Shown piece after piece: positions 3,216-15,459 of a stretch of DNA of 15,459 nucleotides (positions within the stretch are counted from its first letter, which is position 1; every line of letters starts with the position of its first letter). Below the pieces are notes generated by a model. The model saw nothing but the letters and a program-made list of their open reading frames with translations. It did not search any database and was not told where the DNA came from. Source of the DNA: Bacteroidota bacterium (GTDB lineage: Bacteria > Zhuqueibacterota > JdFR-76 > DREG01); the NCBI GenBank assembly GCA_030624545.1, contig JAUXJX010000009.1, forward strand, positions 1-15,459, given 5' to 3'. The position numbers and the translations under genes are program-made.

Positions 3216-4451
3216 TCACAAGAGCGGCGTGCCAATCTCCTGGAAGTCTTCTGCCACACGGGAGGGGTGTTTGTTGAGATCAGAGAGGGGGTAGACCTTG
3301 CAGAATTTGCCGATCTTCATTGCGTCGGGAACAATAGCCCTTTTTCCGATCAGACAAAGATGATCGGGCCCGGCATTCTCATCCCCTAGCCGGCACGCTT
3401 GGCCGATTCCAACTCCTTTGTCAATGATGCAATAATCCAGCTTGGAGCCGGCGCCAACGGTTGTGTCATGAAAGATAATGGAATTGCGCACAACCGCCCC
3501 GGGGCCCACATGAACTCCAGGTGAGAGCACGGAGTTCTCCACAATACCTTCGATCACACATCCCTGTGCAATCAAAGAATTCTCCACCATCGCAGTTTGA
3601 GATATGAAGGCCGGCGGCCGGTCTCCGACCCTCTTCTCCTCATCGAAATTCGTGGCCACGTTCCAGTCTTTAAGGTCCACCTTGGATTCGTCTTGAAATA
3701 CCTCCATATTGGATTCCCAATAGGCCTTCAGCGTTCCGACGTCCCGCCAATACCCATCGAAAACGTAGCCGAAAGCATTATGATCCGCAATAGATTGTGG
3801 GATCAAGTCATGGCCAAAGTCATCTCCGGGTATTTTTTGCAGTTGATCGAAGAGAAAGTCGGTGGAGAAAACATACATCCCCATGGAGGCGAGATCGCTT
3901 TTTGGAGTCTCCGGTTTTTCCGCCCAATCGATTATTCTTCCTTCGGAGTTCAGCATGCCGATGCCAAACTCACTCGTCTCACTTAGTGGAACACGAATCA
4001 TCGCGACCGTCACATCCGCTTTGTGTTCCTGGTGGTATGCCAACATGTCATTGTAATTCATCCGGTAGATGTGATCACCGGAGAGCAGCAGCAAGTATTT
4101 CGAACCAAAATTCCGCACGTAATCCAAATTCTGCCGTACCGCGTCTGCCGTTCCATGGTACCAATCGGAGTCCTTTTTGCCTGTGCTCGGCGATAAGATA
4201 TTTATTCTGCGCGTTCGGCCGTTAAAATCCCATGGAGCCCCCATGCCGATATGATCGACCAGGGAAAGGGGACGATATTGGGGCAGGACAGCCACATGAC
4301 CGATCTCGGAGTTCATCACGTTGCTGAGCGTAAAATCGATGATGCGGTAGATCCCGCCAAATGGGACGGCAGGTTTCGCCCGAAGCTGTGACAAGATGCT
4401 CAGGCGCTTTCCCACACCGCCAGCCAAAATCATTGCTAAAATAGTACTCAT
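3216..4451 (-). CDS. glgC: ADP-glucose pyrophosphorylase (glucose-1-phosphate adenylyltransferase), catalytic type
   Basis: Makes ADP-glucose and pyrophosphate from ATP and glucose-1-phosphate, the committed step to glycogen, in the cytoplasm. All main motifs are intact in 411 residues: GGVGKRL at 11-17, RAKPAVPFGG at 24-33, YRIIDF, GTADAV at 100-105, the catalytic Asp126 in SGDHIY, the glucose-1-phosphate-binding EKP at 178-180, DFGHDLIP at 211-218 and YWRDVGT at 234-240. The C-terminal third is a left-handed beta-helix of hexapeptide repeats. The ATG at 4451 gives the usual MSTILAMILAGG start, but no clear Shine-Dalgarno is present, so translation may be coupled to the paralogue ending 41 bases upstream. 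Allosteric control by sugar phosphates is usual for the family but cannot be read here. Confidence 0.95.
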   Translation of the reverse strand: MSTILAMILAGGVGKRLSILSQLRAKPAVPFGGIYRIIDFTLSNVMNSEIGHVAVLPQYRPLSLVDHIGMGAPWDFNGRTRRINILSPSTGKKDSDWYHGTADAVRQNLDYVRNFGSKYLLLLSGDHIYRMNYNDMLAYHQEHKADVTVAMIRVPLSETSEFGIGMLNSEGRIIDWAEKPETPKSDLASMGMYVFSTDFLFDQLQKIPGDDFGHDLIPQSIADHNAFGYVFDGYWRDVGTLKAYWESNMEVFQDESKVDLKDWNVATNFDEEKRVGDRPPAFISQTAMVENSLIAQGCVIEGIVENSVLSPGVHVGPGAVVRNSIIFHDTTVGAGSKLDYCIIDKGVGIGQACRLGDENAGPDHLCLIGKRAIVPDAMKIGKFCKVYPLSDLNKHPSRVAEDFQEIGTPLL

Positions 4452-4492: not shown

Positions 4493-5674
4493 CTAATCGC
4501 TTTTCTCGCCTTCGGAGATTGCCTTCAAATCATCGGGATTTGGATCGAGGTTGGTTTGACTTCCAATTTCCCTGCCTGACGAGATCGTCACATCCACATC
4601 CAGAATCGTGTTGTTCAAAAATGACTTTTCACCAATTTTGCAATCAAACATCACAATGGAATTGTAGACCTCCGCGCCTTTCTCAACAACCACCCCTGGA
4701 GACAAAATACTATTCTCGACCTTTCCGGTTATGATACTGCCCTTGCAGACCAGGCTGTTTTTGACGCTAGATTCCGCTTTGAAAATTGGCGGTATGCGGG
4801 AGTAAAGGTCTCTATGGAGTAAATTGGTCCGGACCTGCCACGCTTCAAGATCGATGCCATTGCGTCGATACAAGATGTCCATATTCGAATTCCAGAATTC
4901 GGCTAACTTGCGGGCATACGCCCAGTAGCCGCGAAATTTGTAGCCGTAAATCCGAGACCGGTTTCGCGAATCGTTGACCAAAGCAGGGATCAAATCGCGG
5001 CCAAACTCCACCGTCTCTTGGGTCCCGCGGAGGTCAGAGATACGATCCAGACATTGGTAAAAGAATTCTGTTGTAAAGACGTAGATCGTCATGGAAGCCC
5101 ATTGACAGGTTTGGTTTGTTGGTTTCTCAAAGTAGGCCTGGATTCGTCCGCCGATGCCGCCATCTTCGTCGTCAATCTCGGCAACACCGAAGCGATAAGA
5201 ATCAGTGGGCTCGATGGGGACAAAGCCGATGGTCATGTCGGCCTTTTTCTCCACATGATAATCCACAATTTTCTGGTAATTCATTTTGTAGATGTGGTCC
5301 CCGGAAAGAACCAGCACCATTTCTGGATTGGCCATGCGAACGAAATTGACGTTTTGGCTGACCGCATCTACGGTTCCGTCATACCAGTCGGATTCCCGTT
5401 CTCCCCGAAATGGGGGCAGCAGTTTTAGAGACCGTTTTTTGCCGGCCAAATCCCAGGAACTGCCGTCCAAAATATGGTTAATCAGCGGGGAAGAGCGATA
5501 TTGCGACAGCACACCAACCGTCCCGATGCGGGAATGCATGAGATTGCTCAACGGGAAATCGATGATGCGGTAGAAACCGCCAAAAGGCAAGGCGGATTTG
5601 GGCCGGTATTTGGTTAAGGGATAAAGCTCATCAACTCGGCCCCCCGCTAGAATCAGGGCAACAACCCTGTGCAT
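4493..5674 (-). CDS. GlgD-like ADP-glucose pyrophosphorylase paralogue with degraded nucleotide-binding motifs
   Basis: 393 residues, collinear with the neighbouring GlgC through the nucleotidyltransferase domain and the beta-helix. Several hallmark positions have changed. The loop GGxGxRL is GGRVDEL (11-17), RAKPAVP is RPKSALP, GTADAV is GTVDAV (100-105), and YWRDVGT is replaced by YWAYARK (250-256). The catalytic-type Asp126 in SGDHIYKMNY and the EKP at 183-185 remain. This is the pattern of the Firmicute GlgD partner subunit, which has little activity itself and modulates GlgC. By analogy I infer a regulatory or structural subunit of a GlgC heterotetramer, perhaps evolved independently. 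The start is well supported: ATG at 5674 follows GGAGAG at 5-base spacing. It is the first gene of a two-gene unit with glgC. Confidence 0.88.
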   Translation of the reverse strand: MHRVVALILAGGRVDELYPLTKYRPKSALPFGGFYRIIDFPLSNLMHSRIGTVGVLSQYRSSPLINHILDGSSWDLAGKKRSLKLLPPFRGERESDWYDGTVDAVSQNVNFVRMANPEMVLVLSGDHIYKMNYQKIVDYHVEKKADMTIGFVPIEPTDSYRFGVAEIDDEDGGIGGRIQAYFEKPTNQTCQWASMTIYVFTTEFFYQCLDRISDLRGTQETVEFGRDLIPALVNDSRNRSRIYGYKFRGYWAYARKLAEFWNSNMDILYRRNGIDLEAWQVRTNLLHRDLYSRIPPIFKAESSVKNSLVCKGSIITGKVENSILSPGVVVEKGAEVYNSIVMFDCKIGEKSFLNNTILDVDVTISSGREIGSQTNLDPNPDDLKAISEGEKSD

Positions 5675-8168: not shown

Positions 8169-8687
8169 TCAATTTTTCTTTTGGGGTTTTTTGGCTTCTG
8201 GGAGAATCGGCGAGATAACTTTTTCAAAAGTCTTGTAGGAACGCGGACCTATGAATACGCCCTTGATATTGCCTTTGCTGTCAATGACAAAGGTGGTGGG
8301 AACACTAGATATGCCACCATAATCCCTGGCTACCTTGTAGTTCCCCATCAATATAGGATAGTTCATTTTCCACTGCTTTGCGAACTGCCTAACTTTTTCC
8401 GGAGTTCCCGAGCTTATTGCGATTGAAACCACCTCAAAACCCCGGTCTTTATATGAATCACGGAGCTTGATCAGATCCGGAATTTCCTTCTTGCAGGGGC
8501 CGCACCAGGTCGCCCAAAAATTCAGTAACAGGACTTTTCCTGCAAAGTCCGATGAGGACACCATGTTTCCATCAACGTCCTTCAATTTGAAAGCAGGCAT
8601 TTTGAAATCGTCTGAAAAGCAGACGTCGTGCTGAAAAAGGGCCGAAGCCAGAATCAATATTCCGAGAATTGGGATCTTATTTCTCAT
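8169..8687 (-). CDS. TlpA/ResA-like periplasmic thiol-disulfide oxidoreductase
   Basis: 172 residues. A short basic start and hydrophobic segment (about 1-22) direct it out of the cytoplasm, either cleaved or as an anchor. The thioredoxin fold follows: NFWATWCGPCKKEIP holds the active pair Cys62/Cys65, and the cis-proline is Pro130 in SSVPTTF. The DVDGNMVSSSDFAGKVLLLNFW entry is typical of TlpA/ResA reductases of the AhpC/TSA superfamily. Such proteins reduce disulfides in exported proteins or cytochrome c apoproteins and take electrons from DsbD or CcdA. ATG at 8687 has GAGG at 5-base spacing and lies 12 bases after the dsbD stop, so the two are almost certainly cotranscribed and DsbD is the likely electron donor. 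Confidence 0.92.
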   Translation of the reverse strand: MRNKIPILGILILASALFQHDVCFSDDFKMPAFKLKDVDGNMVSSSDFAGKVLLLNFWATWCGPCKKEIPDLIKLRDSYKDRGFEVVSIAISSGTPEKVRQFAKQWKMNYPILMGNYKVARDYGGISSVPTTFVIDSKGNIKGVFIGPRSYKTFEKVISPILPEAKKPQKKN

Positions 8688-8699
8688 CTTTACCTCGTC

Positions 8700-10514
8700 T
8701 CAGTTCATCGCATCCAGCGATAAGACTTGATCCATGTAATCCAAAATCCGGTCAGGCCCTATATAGCCGACCTCCCGGAGATGCGTCAGTTCGTTGCCAC
8801 GTCGATCAAGAAAAACCAGGGTTGGCATCCCCGTCACTTGAAATTGTTCCATGAACGTTCGAATCGGCTCATCGGGAGTCGTGCAGTCAACTTTTACCAT
8901 TTTGAATTTCGATGCGTTGTCGATAACCTGGTCATCCGTAAAGGTTTTCCTATCCATCTCATGGCATGGTGCGCACCAATCGGCATAAAAATCGATGAAA
9001 ACCGGCTTTCCATCAACAAGCAAGGTCTGCAAATCTTCGTTGGAATAATGATGCCACTCCAAATCTTTGGCCTTAACCTGGATGGCGCCATGGGTCAAAT
9101 AGATGCCAAAAAGAATTATTGCTGCGCCGGAGACCCAGCGGACCTTCTTAAATATATTTGTATGTTCGGTAGAATGGTCCAAAAAGCCCAGCAGCAGTCC
9201 GCCGAAAATTGCCAGCAAACCGAAAAAGAAACCCTGCATATCGGGAATGTGTTCCGCCTGGGGAAGAAAAAAGTACAAGGCCACGCCGACCAAAAGCACG
9301 CCGAAGATTTTCTTTACCCAGACCAGCCACACACCCGATTGGGGCAATTGATTCAGCAATCCAGAGAAACTGGCCAGCAATAAATACGGCAGCCCCAGCC
9401 CAAGTCCCATGATAAAGAACAGAATTCCTCCCTTAACGGCAATGCCCAATTTCGCGACCAGACCGACAAGTCCGATAATAATTCCCGCAGCGCACGGCGC
9501 TATGACGACACCGACCGTCAACCCCATGATCAAGGCGCCGGTGACGCCCTCGCGTGAGTGACCGAATTTGTTCATAAGCGCACTTGGGACCCGAATCTCA
9601 AAGGCGCCGAACATGCTCGCCGCCATCGCCAGGATAATCACAGTCACCACCATCACAAACCAGGGATTTTGAAAGAGAAATCCCCATTGCTTTCCGGCAA
9701 GCCCAGAAATCAAACCTAAGACTGAGAAAACTATTGCGATACCGATTACATATACAAGAGCGCGAAAAAATCCGGCCTCCCTTTGCTCACCGGACTGCCC
9801 GCCAAAATAGCTCACCGTAATCGGGATAACCGGATAGACACAAGGAGTGAGATTCAGCGCAAGGCCAAAAATGAAAAATGCGGCTATGGCATATACAAAA
9901 CCCTTCTCTAAGACCTCCTTCGCTTGCCTCTCCTGTCTGGTCAACTGCCATGCTTCATCCTCAGCAGGTTTATCTTTCTCGAAAAATTTCGCAAAAATTT
10001 CCTGATGAGCCAAAGAAATTGTCTCATTTGGCCCTACGACTTCAACGGGAATTGAGAAATGCTCCTGGCTGGGGAAAAGACAGATTTGATCGTTGCAGGC
10101 CTGGTAATCCAGAACTCCTTCGAGCAATAAGCTGGTCGGTTCCATGGAGTTGGCAATGGTAACCTCGGTAAATACGGTGATCTGCTTCTCATAAACCGAC
10201 AATCCTGTCTCGGAAAAATCAAAAGACTTCACTTCTCCTTCCGGATAATAGACCTTACCGAACGAGACCATGTCGAGAGGTTTATAGGACACCCGTGTGG
10301 CGCGATAGATATCTTCCAGAGGTTTGTTTGAATTGATATGCCAAGGAGGGTCGATTTCGACGACCAAAGCAATAAGAAAATCAGTTCCGGCGGGTACACG
10401 ATCGGCCGAGCCATAAGCCTTAACGGTCAAAACTTCCTGCTGGAATGCCCCGCTCGGGACACAGGCAAGGAGGAGAATCAAAGCAGTTAGATGCAGGCGA
10501 AAAGCTGTAAACAT
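8700..10514 (-). CDS. dsbD: DsbD, thiol:disulfide interchange protein (inner-membrane electron transporter)
   Basis: A full-length DsbD of 604 residues that moves electrons from cytosolic thioredoxin to periplasmic reductases. A signal peptide covers about residues 1-24. The N-terminal periplasmic domain has DYQACNDQICLFP with the exchange pair Cys140/Cys145. The eight-span core carries NLTPCVYPVIPITVSYFGG (Cys225) and VIAPCAAG (Cys341). The C-terminal thioredoxin domain has FYADWCAPCHEM (Cys514/Cys517) and cis-proline GMPTLVF. All six redox cysteines are present. The ATG at 10514 has no Shine-Dalgarno, but a near-consensus promoter ends only 6 bases upstream, suggesting a leaderless transcript. 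It follows the small exported protein by 50 bases and precedes the TlpA-like gene by 12. Confidence 0.96.
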   Translation of the reverse strand: MFTAFRLHLTALILLLACVPSGAFQQEVLTVKAYGSADRVPAGTDFLIALVVEIDPPWHINSNKPLEDIYRATRVSYKPLDMVSFGKVYYPEGEVKSFDFSETGLSVYEKQITVFTEVTIANSMEPTSLLLEGVLDYQACNDQICLFPSQEHFSIPVEVVGPNETISLAHQEIFAKFFEKDKPAEDEAWQLTRQERQAKEVLEKGFVYAIAAFFIFGLALNLTPCVYPVIPITVSYFGGQSGEQREAGFFRALVYVIGIAIVFSVLGLISGLAGKQWGFLFQNPWFVMVVTVIILAMAASMFGAFEIRVPSALMNKFGHSREGVTGALIMGLTVGVVIAPCAAGIIIGLVGLVAKLGIAVKGGILFFIMGLGLGLPYLLLASFSGLLNQLPQSGVWLVWVKKIFGVLLVGVALYFFLPQAEHIPDMQGFFFGLLAIFGGLLLGFLDHSTEHTNIFKKVRWVSGAAIILFGIYLTHGAIQVKAKDLEWHHYSNEDLQTLLVDGKPVFIDFYADWCAPCHEMDRKTFTDDQVIDNASKFKMVKVDCTTPDEPIRTFMEQFQVTGMPTLVFLDRRGNELTHLREVGYIGPDRILDYMDQVLSLDAMN

Positions 10515-10564: not shown

Positions 10565-10963
10565 TCAAGGATTTTTAATTACCTCGCCATCGGGCAGGAG
10601 TTTGAATTCCTTAATTTCAATGATCTTGCCGTCGTAGAATAGCCTTCCCTTAATTCTTATTTTCTTATTAAGTTCGCCGATTTCTCGCAAATTTCGCTGT
10701 TCCTGATTGGGATAAAAAGACCAAATTGTGCCATCTGAGACGCGCAACCCGGCCACATGGCCATACTTGTCACAGTTGGGTTTTTTATCTCGCAACTTGG
10801 CCATCTCTTCCGCGACGCATACGAGATTGCCTTCCACAGTCATCAGATCGCTGTCGCGTGTATCAAGGGAATCGGCCTTGGAATCTTGGGACAAGACCTG
10901 CCCGGGAACCAGCAAGGCAAGGGTGGCTACAAACCAGAAGCCAATGGCTGCTTTTGAATTCAT
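10565..10963 (-). CDS. Small exported protein sharing the anti-sigma factor's periplasmic Cys/GH domain
   Basis: 132 residues: a signal peptide (about 1-25, GQVLSQ before DSKA) and one compact domain. The domain runs V-E-G-N-L-V-C49, then C64-x3-G68-H69, DGTIWSFYPN86, KIRIKG106 and IIEIKEF. The periplasmic part of the preceding anti-sigma factor has the same marks at the same spacings: 15 residues Cys to Cys, 4 from Cys to Gly-His, 18 from Gly to the Asn of PN, 10 from Gly to the Glu of IEI. The two are clearly paralogous. The strand pattern and G-x-L-F/V-x-I-x-G ending suggest a small OB-like beta barrel. The function is unknown: it may bind a metal or ligand, be a thiol substrate of the DsbD-TlpA pathway, or compete with the sensor. 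Its ATG overlaps the anti-sigma stop by one base (TGATG), so translation is probably coupled. Confidence 0.8.
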   Translation of the reverse strand: MNSKAAIGFWFVATLALLVPGQVLSQDSKADSLDTRDSDLMTVEGNLVCVAEEMAKLRDKKPNCDKYGHVAGLRVSDGTIWSFYPNQEQRNLREIGELNKKIRIKGRLFYDGKIIEIKEFKLLPDGEVIKNP

Positions 10964-11643
10964 CAGAATGATAAACCTTCAGGATAAGATCGGAAATTTT
11001 CTACGGCAAGGAATGCAACAGCGGGTTCCTCAACACTGTAGTTTTCAATCTCGATAAAATTTGCCTGGTAAAATACCCAACCCGTGATCTTTATCTGGGT
11101 GTGCATCAAATCAGGCTGGATTTCTATGCTCTTTTCATTTGGAATAAATGAATAAACATCCCGTGTATCGGTCAGTAGGGCCAGGGAGTGGCCAAAGTCA
11201 GAGCAATGGCTTTGGGCATTGGCGATTTCCGTATAGTAACATCCGATACATTCCACCCTGCCATATAGATCCTGGACGTGAAATACACCCGAGCCCTCGG
11301 CTGCACCACCCATCTTGTAGATCTGAATCCCGACGAAAGAAAGCAACAAGGCTGTGAGGGCCGTGGCGGCAATCCACCTTGGTTTTGTAAAGATAGCAGC
11401 GAAAAGTCCGGATTTGGTCTCGCCGGACGCAAGTCTCTTTCGAACGCGCGCTCGAAGCTGCACAGGGGCTTTCTCACCTCTGTAGATATCCCGGGCAAAA
11501 TCACGAAAATCTTGTTCAGCCCGAACCGTAGCCTGACATTCCTGGCACTCCGCAAAATGCTGCTTCAATTCAGCCTGCTTAGCAGGCTCCAATTGCTCAT
11601 CAATATAAGCCGAAATAAGAGACTTGCTCTCCTGACAATCCAT
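10963..11643 (-). CDS. Zinc-finger anti-sigma factor with transmembrane segment and periplasmic Cys/GH sensor domain
   Basis: 226 residues in three parts. The cytosolic N-terminus is a zinc-finger anti-sigma (zf-HC2/ZAS) domain with Cys3, His29, Cys33 and Cys36 (H-x3-C-x2-C), which should hold the ECF sigma encoded just upstream. A single membrane span follows at about 91-108 (WIAATALTALLLSFVGIQIY). The outer part (about 120-205) carries C132-x2-C135, C147-x3-G151-H152, YSFIPN (164-169), IKITG188 and FIEIE. This part matches the small exported protein next door. The topology is that of an inner-membrane anti-sigma factor whose outer domain senses an envelope signal; three cysteines make thiol state or metal binding the obvious candidates (inference). 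ATG at 11643 has GGAT upstream. It follows the sigma gene after a 122-base gap and overlaps the next gene by one base. Confidence 0.88.
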   Translation of the reverse strand: MDCQESKSLISAYIDEQLEPAKQAELKQHFAECQECQATVRAEQDFRDFARDIYRGEKAPVQLRARVRKRLASGETKSGLFAAIFTKPRWIAATALTALLLSFVGIQIYKMGGAAEGSGVFHVQDLYGRVECIGCYYTEIANAQSHCSDFGHSLALLTDTRDVYSFIPNEKSIEIQPDLMHTQIKITGWVFYQANFIEIENYSVEEPAVAFLAVENFRSYPEGLSF

Positions 11644-11765: not shown

Positions 11766-12371
11766 TCAACCTAAATTCTCCCGGGTTTCTCGCTGTTTGG
11801 CCTTAACAAAACCTTCGCGCTTCGCATATTCCAGGAGCGCTTTCTGTAAGAACTTGCGACCTCGTGAAATCCTGGACATTACCGTTCCGATGGGAATATC
11901 CAGCATCCTGCCGATCTCTTTGTAGGAGAAACTCTCTATATCGCATAGTAGTACCGCCACACGGTAATTTTCAGGCATCTGCTCGATGGCAACGATTACC
12001 TCATCGGCGAATGAATTTCGAAATCTGTCCTTGTTTTCAAGTAAAGACTGAATCTCTTCCGGCTTTGAGTCCGTTTCAATCGAATATTCGACCTTTTCAA
12101 ACTGCACCGACTGCGGTGTGCGCATCTTCTTGTGATATTTATTGATAAAGGTGTTCATCAATATCTTGAAGATCCAGGCCTTAAAGTTTGTACCAGGCTC
12201 GAACCTGTGAAAGAATTGAAACGCTTTCAGATAGGTATCCTGCACAAGGTCCTCAGAGTCTTGTTGACTTTGCGTCAGACGCAAAGCGGTACTGTAGAGG
12301 GAATTCATGTGCTCGAAGGCGATTTCTTCGAACAGGTTGCGCTGCTCCTTGGCAGAATGGGTTGAAGACAT
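11766..12371 (-). CDS. ECF (RpoE-like) RNA polymerase sigma factor
   Basis: 201 residues with only the two core domains of an ECF sigma. Region 2 (about 16-84) includes DSEDLVQDTYLKAFQFFHRF for core and -10 binding, then FKAWIFKILMNTFINKYHKK. Region 4 (about 124-180) has IEQMPENYRVAVLLCDIESF and the helix-turn-helix YKEIGRMLDIPIGTVMSRIS, then RGRKFLQKAL for -35 contact. It is presumably held by the membrane anti-sigma factor encoded next. It starts 32 bases after the barrel protein, so it may be cotranscribed with it. No strong ribosome site precedes ATG at 12371. Its targets cannot be read here, but the following redox genes are the natural candidates. Confidence 0.95.
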   Translation of the reverse strand: MSSTHSAKEQRNLFEEIAFEHMNSLYSTALRLTQSQQDSEDLVQDTYLKAFQFFHRFEPGTNFKAWIFKILMNTFINKYHKKMRTPQSVQFEKVEYSIETDSKPEEIQSLLENKDRFRNSFADEVIVAIEQMPENYRVAVLLCDIESFSYKEIGRMLDIPIGTVMSRISRGRKFLQKALLEYAKREGFVKAKQRETRENLG

Positions 12372-12403: not shown

Positions 12404-15400
12404 TTAGAACTCCGCTCCTAATGAAAAGTAAGATCTCGGCTTTGTGCTGATGTGGCTGAGGTCAGTGCGCCATGCCAGGTCGTAGCGCAGCAAGAACATG
12501 CCCAGATTCACGCGCATGCCCGTGCCAAATCCGGCAATGGGTGAACCCAGTTTTGGCAGCAAGCCTGTTCCACCGTCCTTCGCGAAAAAGCGGAATTGGT
12601 CATTGTGGGTCCATGCTGCTCCCATGTCATAAAAAAGTACGCCGCGAATGTTGGAAAAGAACATGGGCGGGACGCCAAGTATGAAATACCTGATAAAAGG
12701 GAATCTGAATTCGAAATTGGTCAGGAAAAAGCGCGTTCCTATCTGTTCGTAATAGTCGGTTCCGCGTAGTGGCATTTCGAATGAGGAGAAATAGATATCG
12801 TCAGGATTGTCGATGCGCAACGATCCATCTTTGAATCGCCGATTAATCCAATTGTCCATTCCGCCAAGAAAGAAGTTCTGCGCGTTTTTCCCGAAGGATG
12901 CACCCCCTGTCAGGCGAACGACAAAGTTAAATTCTTCTCCCATTTTGTAATACTTGCGATAATCAAATGATAGGGTTCGAAAATCGATGCTGTTCTTTCC
13001 GATGTCCGGGCTGAACAAAAGAGATACACTGGAGCGCTGCCCATTCACAGGCCCCGTGAAACCCCATAATGTTGTGTCCTTTACATACTGCAATCCGGAA
13101 ACCAACACCCTTCTTTTGGAAAGATCAACCCCAAAGCTGGTGTCGGTTCGATCGACGCCCAGAAAAGTCATGCTGAAATCAACTCTTCGGTATCGATCAA
13201 ACGGGCGAGACATAAAGAAATTCAGGCCAAAGTTTCGATCTCGCACGATGGTGCCTATACTCGTGCGGAAAAAATAGGTGTAGTGAAATCCCCCGATGCC
13301 AACGTCTATTCTTTTGGGCAAATAAAAATAACCGAATTGATAGTCACTGTTGCGCAAATCGTAGAACAGGTTGGTGAATATATCGATTCTATGATTCCCC
13401 AACACATCTGAAAAAGACAGAATGGCGTTGCCTTGAACTCCGAAAAACTGGCTGTAGCCGGCATTGCCGTAAATAATGTCGGGCGAAAAAGTAATCTTGT
13501 AGTCGTTCACCAGGTAATCCCCGGAGGCACTCTTAAATATGGATGAGTCTGGGAAAATTTCAGCCAGTTTGTCCTTACTCGGCTGGACGTCGCCTTGCTG
13601 GAATGATTTATCGAAGACGAAATGGCGATAGTCTTCACTGGCTAATTCAACAGGAGACGTGTCTTCTTCATCCAGACTTCGATAGGTGTCAAAAATGGTG
13701 GCAACCTCGCCGCTTTTGAATTTGCTCAAGAATCTTGTGTCCTCTAACACAATAGAGCCGGGTTCGATTTCGGCTGGGTTCTTTATCATGTAAACATCAT
13801 ATCCTGCCTGATGAAATGCGGTGTATACAAGGTTGTTTCTTACCCAATTCGGCTGAAACGCACCCGTAATAATATTGGTAATTGGATGCCTTTCTTCCGT
13901 CTCCAAATTGTGAATGAACAGATTAAATATTCCTGATTCGTCACAGGAGTATACCAATGACTTACCATCCGGCGACCAGGCAGGACTTTTCTCCAAAAAT
14001 TCCGTCCGTGTAATTCTTTTGATTTCTTTCGTATCGACATCAATGAGGTAGATGTCATGATTCGCGTAGTTTACATCGTGAATGCTGGCAGTAGCTCTTT
14101 CTGAAGAATCAACATAGGGACCACGATCGCTCACGAAGACAATCGATTCCCCGTCAGGTGACCATTTCGGCTGAAGATCACTAAATACGTCCTGGGTTAG
14201 GTTACGATAGCGATTTGTGGTAAGGTTCTGAACGTAGATGTCACCGGAACCATCCTTAGTAGCAGAGAAGGCGATCTCGTCGCCGCTCGGGGACCAAGTG
14301 GGAGAAAACAATTCGTCAAACTCGAACTCATACGTTGCAATGATCTTCTTCTTCTTGACATCAACAATGTGCAGCACATCAAATTCGCCCTTCTTGGCAG
14401 AAAAGGCGAGCTTCTTTCCATCTGGCGACCAGGTGATACCAGGATCCAGCCAGTTTAATTCTTCGAGATCCATTGTCTGCTGGCCCCGTACGACACGATC
14501 CAATATTTTTCCATCAATGGCGCTCATCACATAGATATCAAAGTAATCAGACTTATCGGACAAGAAGGCAATCTTATCGCCTCGAGGAGACAGCGCCGGA
14601 GCGTTGTTTACGAAGTTTCTGGTTTTGACATGATCTGTCAACTTCTTTGAAAAGTCCTCAGGGTCCTGTCGGTTTGCTATATCCGGCCAGTATTCCTTCT
14701 TAATATACTTTTGCCAGCGTTTATTCAGCTCTTCCAGGCCGATGCCGATGGATCGCTTGAGTCCTCGTTCCACACTCTTGGACACTCTGATCTTCCCGAG
14801 TATTTCCCCGATTTTTTCCGGTCCGTATTTTTCCGCAAGGTAATAGTAGACATTTTGTCCCCCCTTGTAGTTTAAAAACCCACCAAACCCTTGAAGTGGC
14901 GGCAGGTAACCGCCCAGGGCTGCATCCCGCATAAACATATCGCTCTCGGTATTCCAGCGAATGCTGGTATATTCTGCGAGACCCTCAATCATCCAGAGCG
15001 GTAATTGAAATCGCATCATGCCATTGATTATGGATTGCATACCGGAGCCATAAAGCATCTGCAGCATAACGGCATGAGTCAGTTCGTGATGCAGCACATG
15101 CCGATACTTTTCGTAGTCGCCCTCAAAGGGAAGTACGATTCGATTCTTAAAGAATTCAGTGAAACCGCCAACCGATTCTTCCGGTACTCCAAAGCTCACA
15201 TTTGACTGTTCGAAGTCATTATGACCATTGTAGAGAATCAGTGTTATCCTGTCGACCAAATCATAACGCATATCTCTTTGCAGCGAAACATAGCTGGACT
15301 CGCATACGTCTGCAGCGAATTCGGCAATTTCACGGCCGCCCTCATAAAAATAAAGATCAAAATGCTTGGATTGCAGATACTGCCAGTCGAACGCGGTGTA

Positions 15401-15459
15401 TTGCACCTTGTTCTTTCCGAAACCCTGGGCATGGGCGGTTGCAGAAAGGGCCAGGACCG
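12404..15459 (-). CDS. Exported fusion: MA-type metalloprotease, six-bladed WD40/TolB-like propeller, outer-membrane beta-barrel (5' end outside window)
   Basis: About 1017 codons are visible. The frame is open past the GTG at 15406 to the right edge, and the added residues end in SATAHAQG, a signal-peptidase site, so only the first part of the signal peptide is missing. Domain 1 is a gluzincin-type protease: HELTH (15074-15088) binds zinc and EGLAEY (14969-14986) supplies the third ligand. Domain 2 has six PD40/WD40-like blades with repeated WSPDGKxLAF/Y and DIYV motifs. Domain 3 is rich in alternating aromatic strands, has VLFYDMGAAW and GFGTGMRVNLGMFLLRYDLAW typical of BamA/Omp85-like barrels, and ends in Phe, as outer-membrane barrels do. 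It is likely anchored in the outer membrane with protease and propeller in the periplasm or outside. Its substrate is unknown. Confidence 0.9.
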   Translation of the reverse strand, partial: VLALSATAHAQGFGKNKVQYTAFDWQYLQSKHFDLYFYEGGREIAEFAADVCESSYVSLQRDMRYDLVDRITLILYNGHNDFEQSNVSFGVPEESVGGFTEFFKNRIVLPFEGDYEKYRHVLHHELTHAVMLQMLYGSGMQSIINGMMRFQLPLWMIEGLAEYTSIRWNTESDMFMRDAALGGYLPPLQGFGGFLNYKGGQNVYYYLAEKYGPEKIGEILGKIRVSKSVERGLKRSIGIGLEELNKRWQKYIKKEYWPDIANRQDPEDFSKKLTDHVKTRNFVNNAPALSPRGDKIAFLSDKSDYFDIYVMSAIDGKILDRVVRGQQTMDLEELNWLDPGITWSPDGKKLAFSAKKGEFDVLHIVDVKKKKIIATYEFEFDELFSPTWSPSGDEIAFSATKDGSGDIYVQNLTTNRYRNLTQDVFSDLQPKWSPDGESIVFVSDRGPYVDSSERATASIHDVNYANHDIYLIDVDTKEIKRITRTEFLEKSPAWSPDGKSLVYSCDESGIFNLFIHNLETEERHPITNIITGAFQPNWVRNNLVYTAFHQAGYDVYMIKNPAEIEPGSIVLEDTRFLSKFKSGEVATIFDTYRSLDEEDTSPVELASEDYRHFVFDKSFQQGDVQPSKDKLAEIFPDSSIFKSASGDYLVNDYKITFSPDIIYGNAGYSQFFGVQGNAILSFSDVLGNHRIDIFTNLFYDLRNSDYQFGYFYLPKRIDVGIGGFHYTYFFRTSIGTIVRDRNFGLNFFMSRPFDRYRRVDFSMTFLGVDRTDTSFGVDLSKRRVLVSGLQYVKDTTLWGFTGPVNGQRSSVSLLFSPDIGKNSIDFRTLSFDYRKYYKMGEEFNFVVRLTGGASFGKNAQNFFLGGMDNWINRRFKDGSLRIDNPDDIYFSSFEMPLRGTDYYEQIGTRFFLTNFEFRFPFIRYFILGVPPMFFSNIRGVLFYDMGAAWTHNDQFRFFAKDGGTGLLPKLGSPIAGFGTGMRVNLGMFLLRYDLAWRTDLSHISTKPRSYFSLGAEF

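Follow-up and report, generated by a model that had tools for sequence, protein, structure and literature searches.

A Paralog of an Anti-Sigma Factor's Outer Domain Encoded as a Free, Putatively Exported Protein in a SigR/SigH-Like Locus

Introduction

When the outer domain of a membrane-spanning anti-sigma factor occurs a second time, as a free protein encoded directly behind it, what might the free copy do? The question is raised by a locus in a draft genome (2.86 Mb, 77% complete), of which one complete contig forms the window, the whole stretch of 15,459 nucleotides analyzed here. A sequence-only reading had proposed that the two neighboring proteins are paralogs, and both reading frames lay where it had placed them. 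In order along the minus strand, the window encodes a Peptidase_MA/PD40/Omp85 protein, an ECF sigma factor, the anti-sigma factor, the putatively exported protein, DsbD, and a TlpA/ResA-like protein. The features considered below are the following.

8169-8687, minus strand: TlpA/ResA-like thioredoxin
8700-10514, minus strand: DsbD thiol:disulfide interchange protein, the next gene after the pair in 3/3 genomes of the window's family
10565-10963, minus strand: putatively exported, stand-alone copy of the predicted sensor domain, 132 amino acids (reading frame, paralogy, relatives, predicted b-a-a-b-b-a-b-b order)
10598-10843, minus strand: domain of the exported copy, residues 41-122, with C49, E52, C64, and H69
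10889-10963, minus strand: hydrophobic N-terminal stretch of the exported copy, residues 1-25, a putative Sec signal peptide (hydropathy)
10963-11643, minus strand: zf-HC2/zinc anti-sigma factor, 226 amino acids (Pfam zf-HC2 and NCBIfam RsrA models)
11032-11274, minus strand: anti-sigma outer domain, residues 124-204, with C132, C135, C147, and H152
11320-11376, minus strand: the one predicted membrane span of the anti-sigma factor, roughly residues 90-108 (hydropathy and structure model)
11524-11643, minus strand: predicted cytoplasmic zinc part of the anti-sigma factor, with C3, H29, C33, and C36
11718-11743, minus strand: promoter-like site of the SigR/SigH type, GGAAT-N18-GTT, some 75 bases ahead of the anti-sigma start
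11766-12371, minus strand: ECF sigma factor (best NCBIfam model SigH_actino)

Results

Assignment of the Encoded Proteins

The anti-sigma factor passed the Pfam zf-HC2 cut-off (32.8 bits against 22.2), and it scored 56.7 bits with the NCBIfam RsrA model (TIGR03988 equivalog), under that model's cut-off of 62.5. It carries the marks of zinc anti-sigma (ZAS) proteins, namely H-x3-C-x2-C and a fourth ligand within its N-terminal part and an adjoining ECF gene. The ECF protein matched SigH_actino at 1.2e-51 and 175.1 bits, under the cut-off of 251.55. A membrane span in the anti-sigma factor was indicated by a hydropathy of 1.89 at residue 90 and by a long helix (88-115) in the predicted structure. 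For the 132-residue protein, neither Pfam nor NCBIfam gave a match at E <= 1, so that no homology to RseB/MucB was found in Pfam, which presumably includes an RseB model. Its hydrophobic N-terminus, in which no lipobox cysteine was seen by eye, would suggest export.

Paralogy and Predicted Fold

BLASTP aligned residues 45-122 of the exported protein with residues 128-204 of the anti-sigma factor, with 18 of 78 positions identical, one gap, and an E-value of 5e-10 for this single comparison. The local alignment scored 94, where shuffled sequences averaged 27.3 (z 15.7), and 0 of 5,000 shuffles reached that score, which rules out a chance likeness. Profile-profile comparison by hhalign gave a probability of 99.0 between ten exported copies and the outer domains of five anti-sigma factors from the window's family, and 99.4 between the exported copies and 42 outer domains from other families. 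When the same genome was searched with the exported protein, the matches were its own gene, the anti-sigma domain (E 6.1e-6), and a single weak site with internal stops (E 0.565).

The residues on which the proposal had been built were all present, comprising C132/C49, C147-x3-GH/C64-x3-GH, SF-x-PN, I-x-G, and IEI, and the spacings are equal in both proteins at 15 residues from cysteine to cysteine and 18 from cysteine to serine. A further cysteine had been overlooked: C135 of the anti-sigma factor, which completes a C-x2-C motif, corresponds to the glutamate E52 in the exported copy. The one-base overlap of the two genes was likewise found in the window, but it is not conserved: seven bases separate the genes in two other genomes, assuming for G002 a start at the MFYRS codon.

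AlphaFold2 models of the two proteins, compared by the order of their elements, agreed. The exported protein was modeled with a strand (41-49), two helices (50-58 and 64-67), two strands (71-74 and 80-83), a helix (87-95), and two strands (101-109 and 114-122). The anti-sigma outer domain was modeled with a strand (120-132), two helices (133-141 and 147-150), two strands (154-158 and 163-166), a helix (170-174), and two strands (183-191 and 196-204). Element starts are mostly offset by 82-83 residues between the models, and the anti-sigma factor, for which the mean pLDDT was 81.3, has the longer first strand. For the exported protein, the best model had a mean pLDDT of 73.8 and the four others ranged from 60.6 to 40.2. 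With BLASTP, the shuffles, hhalign, and the predicted element order in agreement, the exported protein and the anti-sigma outer domain are paralogs.

Compared by strand order, both models match the b1-b2-b3-a-b4-b5 arrangement of an OB fold, whose five strands form a closed barrel. The outer domain had only weak single matches in Pfam and NCBIfam, where individual domain members matched tRNA_anti-codon (0.086), DUF1980_C (0.016), and DUF5818 (0.0076), and a PDB sequence search returned one match at E 1.1. Judging from the strand order and the weak Pfam matches, the domain may be of an OB-like class.

Occurrence and Duplication History

A domain profile was built from 16 domains, with rows including the family's own copies and several other loci, and it was searched at E <= 0.01 against 81 of the 82 genomes of the phylum (G023, where the domain is present, was left out). 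The domain was matched in 23 of the 81 genomes. Two copies were found in all three genomes of the window's family, which represent three genera, and a single copy in the other 20; no match at this threshold was found in the four genomes from other families of the same order. The expectation that the pairing would recur in related genomes thus held within the family but not beyond it, and a pairing general to the phylum is ruled out, as only three of the 23 matching genomes, all from one family, have two copies. Since the free copy is missing in 20 genomes, it is dispensable for the existence of the domain in the anti-sigma factor.

Twenty-four loci were read, 23 fetched and that of the window, and in all but L088 and L077 the non-exported domain sits behind a part matching the N-terminus of the window's anti-sigma factor. 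At L088, where the domain is fused to the ECF protein, the N-terminal match fell short, and at L077 a stop separates the two parts. A search of 5.8 billion proteins gave 34 hits, of which eight were of the exported type (122-134 amino acids) and 26 were of anti-sigma length (214-226 amino acids), some of the latter kind being labeled candidate division KSB1 in the protein database. Because this search detects only relatives with common short exact words, the domain may reach beyond the relatives that it found. Outside the three genomes, a further pair is hinted at by an exported copy (P0005) and an anti-sigma factor (P0010) whose longest contigs are equal in length, at 59,456 bases. A scan of named genomes with the alignment of exported copies gave one locus.

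The ten exported sequences (nine different domains) all have an open frame. In seven aligned copies, 30 positions are invariant, identity to the window's copy is 39-63%, and a hydrophobic N-terminus was seen in all seven copies inspected for it.

A tree was inferred from 57 domain rows (53 different) over 88 columns; the G069 domain, which is cut by an in-frame stop, was omitted (57 of 58). The ten exported copies formed one clade (96/88), the five anti-sigma domains of the family formed a second (99/97), and both clades grouped together against the 42 others (99/95). Both stems that follow the duplication are long, at 0.59 and 1.09 changes per column, and a program warning pointed to long branches joining at the very split on which this grouping depends. 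The tree points to one duplication within the window's family as the likely origin, a grouping that is likely and not certain because of the 88 columns and the long-branch warning. The third ligand-like residue agrees with the joint clade, being a cysteine common to both paralogs and a histidine in 42/42 others. Separate recruitments of the domain were rejected on the one supported clade, for which the program judged a clade test unneeded.

Ligand-Like Residues and the Sensing Part

Four ligand-like residues occupy fixed places in the domain. They are C,C,H,H in 42/42 anti-sigma factors of other families (C-x2-C ... H ... H), C,C,C,H in 5/5 of the window's family, and C,E,C,H in 10/10 exported copies, counts that include some rows with identical domains. 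In metal sites, cysteine, histidine, and glutamate interchange at fixed places, and since the same exchange is seen here and the third cysteine is common to both paralogs, the pattern would fit a metal site. Redox chemistry at the C-x2-C of the anti-sigma factor is conceivable. The circuit is best read as one that senses metals or thiols in the envelope, and we infer the metal or thiol signal from the ligand-like residues and the neighboring genes; the direction of signaling is similarly presumed.

The outer domain is complete in 47 of the 48 anti-sigma rows and cut in the remaining one (G069). The outer motif was kept in 47/47, while the inner zinc motif was present in 41 and missing in six, which fall into two separate starred clades of the tree. 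Because the outer site is more constant than the inner zinc site, the outer domain is probably the sensor. An RsrA-type inner zinc switch was considered as the conserved sensor and is weakened, since two clades without the inner motif keep the outer one.

The six anti-sigma factors without the inner motif (L079, L081, L083, L084, L087, and L088) keep both the outer site and GGAAT-N18/19-GTT. At L088 (7174-8493, G027), a single frame of 439 amino acids covers both the ECF sigma factor and the anti-sigma factor, and the anti-sigma half lacks the zinc motif and keeps the outer C-x2-C/H/H; if the assembly is right, this is a sigma/anti-sigma fusion. At L077 (G069), an in-frame TAA separates the membrane part of the anti-sigma factor from the outer domain.

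A mixed disulfide between the free copy and the anti-sigma factor, one of the roles suggested earlier, appears less likely from this pattern, because the position of C135 is a glutamate (E52) in 10/10 exported copies; C49 and C64 remain. A disulfide through C-x2-C motifs of both partners is for the same reason not a leading idea.

A Promoter-Like Site Before the Pair

In 3/3 genomes of the family (the window, G001 at L066, and G002 at L067), GGAAT-N18-GTT lies between the sigma and anti-sigma genes. The pattern is known from SigR/SigH, and it was first noticed by eye and counted afterwards. Within 160 bases upstream of an anti-sigma, ECF, or leading TlpA gene, GGAAT-N17-20-GTT was found at 17 of 22 loci, which are related and hence not independent; it preceded the anti-sigma gene in four, the ECF gene in nine, and the leading TlpA gene in four. 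In 500 shuffles that kept base make-up, a mean of 0.56 and a maximum of four loci had a site, and control spacings gave 1, 1, 5, 2, and 2 loci. Two of the 24 loci, L077 (stop) and L088 (fused gene), were left out of the count, and both have a site. The five loci without one were L068, L071 (where a site lies at 226 bases), L078, L085, and L086. Within the window, GGAAT-N17-20-GTT occurs three times against 3.04 expected, once inside the ECF gene; with frequency at chance, the case for a promoter rests on the conserved place.

The site agrees with published promoter sequences. The SigH consensus of C. glutamicum is GGAAT-N18-19-GTT (PMC10012870), SigR promoters carry GGAAT and GTTG (PMC5005934), and in Corynebacterium a SigH-driven promoter serves the anti-sigma gene rshA alone, which the authors read as a shut-off (PMC3489674). 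By its position, the site would make a single feedback unit of the anti-sigma factor, the exported copy, DsbD, and TlpA, and a feedback role of the free copy is plausible because a SigR/SigH-type promoter-like site precedes the pair.

The family ECF gene has no GGAAT site within 160 bases upstream. Autoregulation of the sigma gene is still conceivable, given a looser GGAAC site about 200 bases upstream of the window's ECF start. A sigma-70-like match in the gap upstream of DsbD occurred at chance frequency. A wider regulon was not seen with GGAAT-N17-19-GTTA in the window's own genome (55 matches against 50 for the reversed control). In the three genomes, GGAATT-N16-AGTT matched 11, 20, and 25 times, and its reversed control, which differs in make-up, 1, 4, and 9 times; of 30 sites read out among these 56, 23 were inside frames of at least 150 amino acids, two were the anti-sigma sites, one precedes another gene, and four precede none. 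At L081 (G025), an anti-sigma gene with a SigR-type site has no recognized ECF gene adjoining, and the only ECF match of that genome at E <= 1e-30 is on a different contig.

Thiol-Redox Neighbors

The pair is followed by DsbD and TlpA in 3/3 genomes of the window's family. DsbD, CcdA, or TlpA was found in or adjoining the unit at 11 of 24 loci in all, comprising 3/3 in f1 and 8/8 in f23. None was found at the six loci of f12, where three loci (L071, L083, and L087) continue with genes whose products have CxxCH heme motifs by eye, and none among the genes listed at the seven loci of f22; for unmatched neighbors, the first 90 residues were considered. Two of the four families thus show a strong link to thiol redox, and one shows none.

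Proposed Circuit and the Role of the Free Copy

Computation supports the paralogy, the single duplication, the pairing and gene order, the ligand-like pattern, and the promoter-like site, and from these a circuit can be proposed. The cytoplasmic zinc domain of the anti-sigma factor would hold the SigR/SigH-like ECF sigma factor, and the OB-like outer domain with its four-ligand site would sense a periplasmic signal, either a metal ion or the oxidation of metal-binding thiols. When the outer site is lost or changed, the sigma factor would be freed and, from GGAAT-N18-GTT behind its own gene, would direct transcription of the anti-sigma factor, the free copy, DsbD, and TlpA, the last two unless another promoter intervenes. 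The free copy would then form a soluble, sigma-induced pool with a modified site (C,E,C,H against C,C,C,H) and would feed back on the sensor; sharing the ligand, passing it on, or binding to the sensor would be the likeliest ways. Its action would help to switch the response off, and DsbD and TlpA would restore thiols.

Taken as a whole, with the free copy acting back on the sensor, this envelope stress circuit has in our judgment slightly less than an even chance of being right. This feedback step is a reasoned guess: the odds are about even between a free copy that targets the anti-sigma factor and one that serves DsbD and TlpA, and an effector reading is nearly as likely. The more specific version, in which the anti-sigma factor controls a soluble periplasmic twin and is in turn controlled by it, and in which this twin, induced by the sigma factor, competes for or delivers the sensor's metal or thiol ligand and closes a feedback loop across the membrane, is put forward tentatively.

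Against the circuit, the free copy adjoins DsbD as well as the anti-sigma gene, and it could therefore serve DsbD and TlpA. As an output of the response, it would be a periplasmic client or carrier that binds metal or thiols and makes no contact with the anti-sigma factor. This is quite possible: the gene lies directly upstream of DsbD and TlpA behind the same promoter-like site, the glutamate in place of the second cysteine in 10/10 copies makes its site unlike that of the sensor, and long stems in both copies would be expected if their tasks diverged. However, DsbD or CcdA in other families also stands behind anti-sigma factors that have this domain and no free copy (L068, L070, L073, and L078) and so does not need one, and three of the four ligand-like residues are kept in the free copy.

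An arrangement like that of RseB appears unlikely, in which the free copy and the outer domain would form a heterodimer that protects the anti-sigma factor against a site-1 protease as long as no signal is present. The gene order rpoE-rseA-rseB places the RseB gene behind the RseA gene, as the free copy is placed here, and domains of the same fold often form pseudo-homodimers. Nevertheless, relatives have anti-sigma factors with the same domain and no free copy, no protease was recognized in the part of the window that runs from the ECF gene to the TlpA gene, and RseB is not known to be a copy of the RseA outer domain. Lastly, that the free copy is a functionless leftover of tandem duplication, as its presence in one family only might suggest, is highly improbable in view of the open frames and four site residues kept in all ten sequences of the invariant positions in the seven aligned, of the hydrophobic N-termini in the seven inspected, and of the retention of the copy in three genera.

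Comparison With Known Systems

The proposed circuit most resembles SigR-RsrA of Streptomyces and SigH-RshA of Corynebacterium. The sigma factor is closest to SigH_actino and the N-terminal part of the anti-sigma factor to RsrA, the zinc motif is of the same kind, the promoter-like sites are of the GGAAT-N18-19-GTT type, and thiol-disulfide genes are linked; a sigma-type promoter before the anti-sigma gene is also described for SigH-RshA (PMC3489674). In contrast, RsrA is described without a membrane or outer domain (PMC4598750), and the system here has a membrane span, an outer four-ligand domain, and a free copy. Unlike the soluble RsrA, the anti-sigma factor has a hydrophobic span near residues 90-108, and the zinc motif, which in RsrA houses a zinc-releasing disulfide switch, is absent from 6/47 anti-sigma factors of its kind.

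RpoE-RseA-RseB of E. coli is alike in combining a sigma factor, a membrane anti-sigma factor, and a periplasmic protein in one unit, and unlike in that the third protein here is a paralog of the anti-sigma outer domain. In CnrYXH of Cupriavidus, CnrX is membrane-bound and is not known to be a copy of CnrY, unlike the soluble copy of the outer domain described here. RseB is described as binding RseA, and CnrX as a sensor whose periplasmic domain binds metal and which acts on a separate anti-sigma factor (PMC4598750). In SigF-NrsF of Caulobacter, two conserved and probably periplasmic cysteines of the anti-sigma factor matter for the release of the sigma factor under metal stress; the anti-sigma protein is a different one, and no free sensor copy appears in the excerpt of the source (PMC3511200).

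The ECF sigma factor, the zinc anti-sigma factor, the SigR-type promoter, and DsbD are of known kinds. A layout with a sensor decoy or a copied-out sensor domain was not found in the literature searched, partly with narrow phrases in open-license papers, and that search likewise returned nothing on KSB1 anti-sigma factors or on duplicated or paralogous sensor domains. The locus offers a traceable case of a sensor domain copied from a signaling protein into a free partner of the same operon, for which the 20 genomes with the domain and without the free copy form a comparison set. A further suggestion is that the SigR/RsrA thiol-stress family has an envelope branch, where the outer four-ligand domain has apparently taken over sensing from the cytoplasmic zinc site, and to which periplasmic thiol reduction (DsbD, CcdA, and TlpA) is linked in two of four families.

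Other Genes of the Window

Besides the genes discussed above, the window encodes at 12404-15406 on the minus strand a protein of 1,000 amino acids with a Peptidase_MA domain, PD40 propeller repeats, and an Omp85 barrel. Its relatives at L066 and L067, which precede the ECF gene, have 1,026-1,027 amino acids, and the window's protein may therefore be cut or start further upstream. Additionally, the neighboring genes at 3216-4451 and 4493-5674 encode proteins that, judged by eye, resemble the ADP-glucose pyrophosphorylase type and are apparently related to each other.
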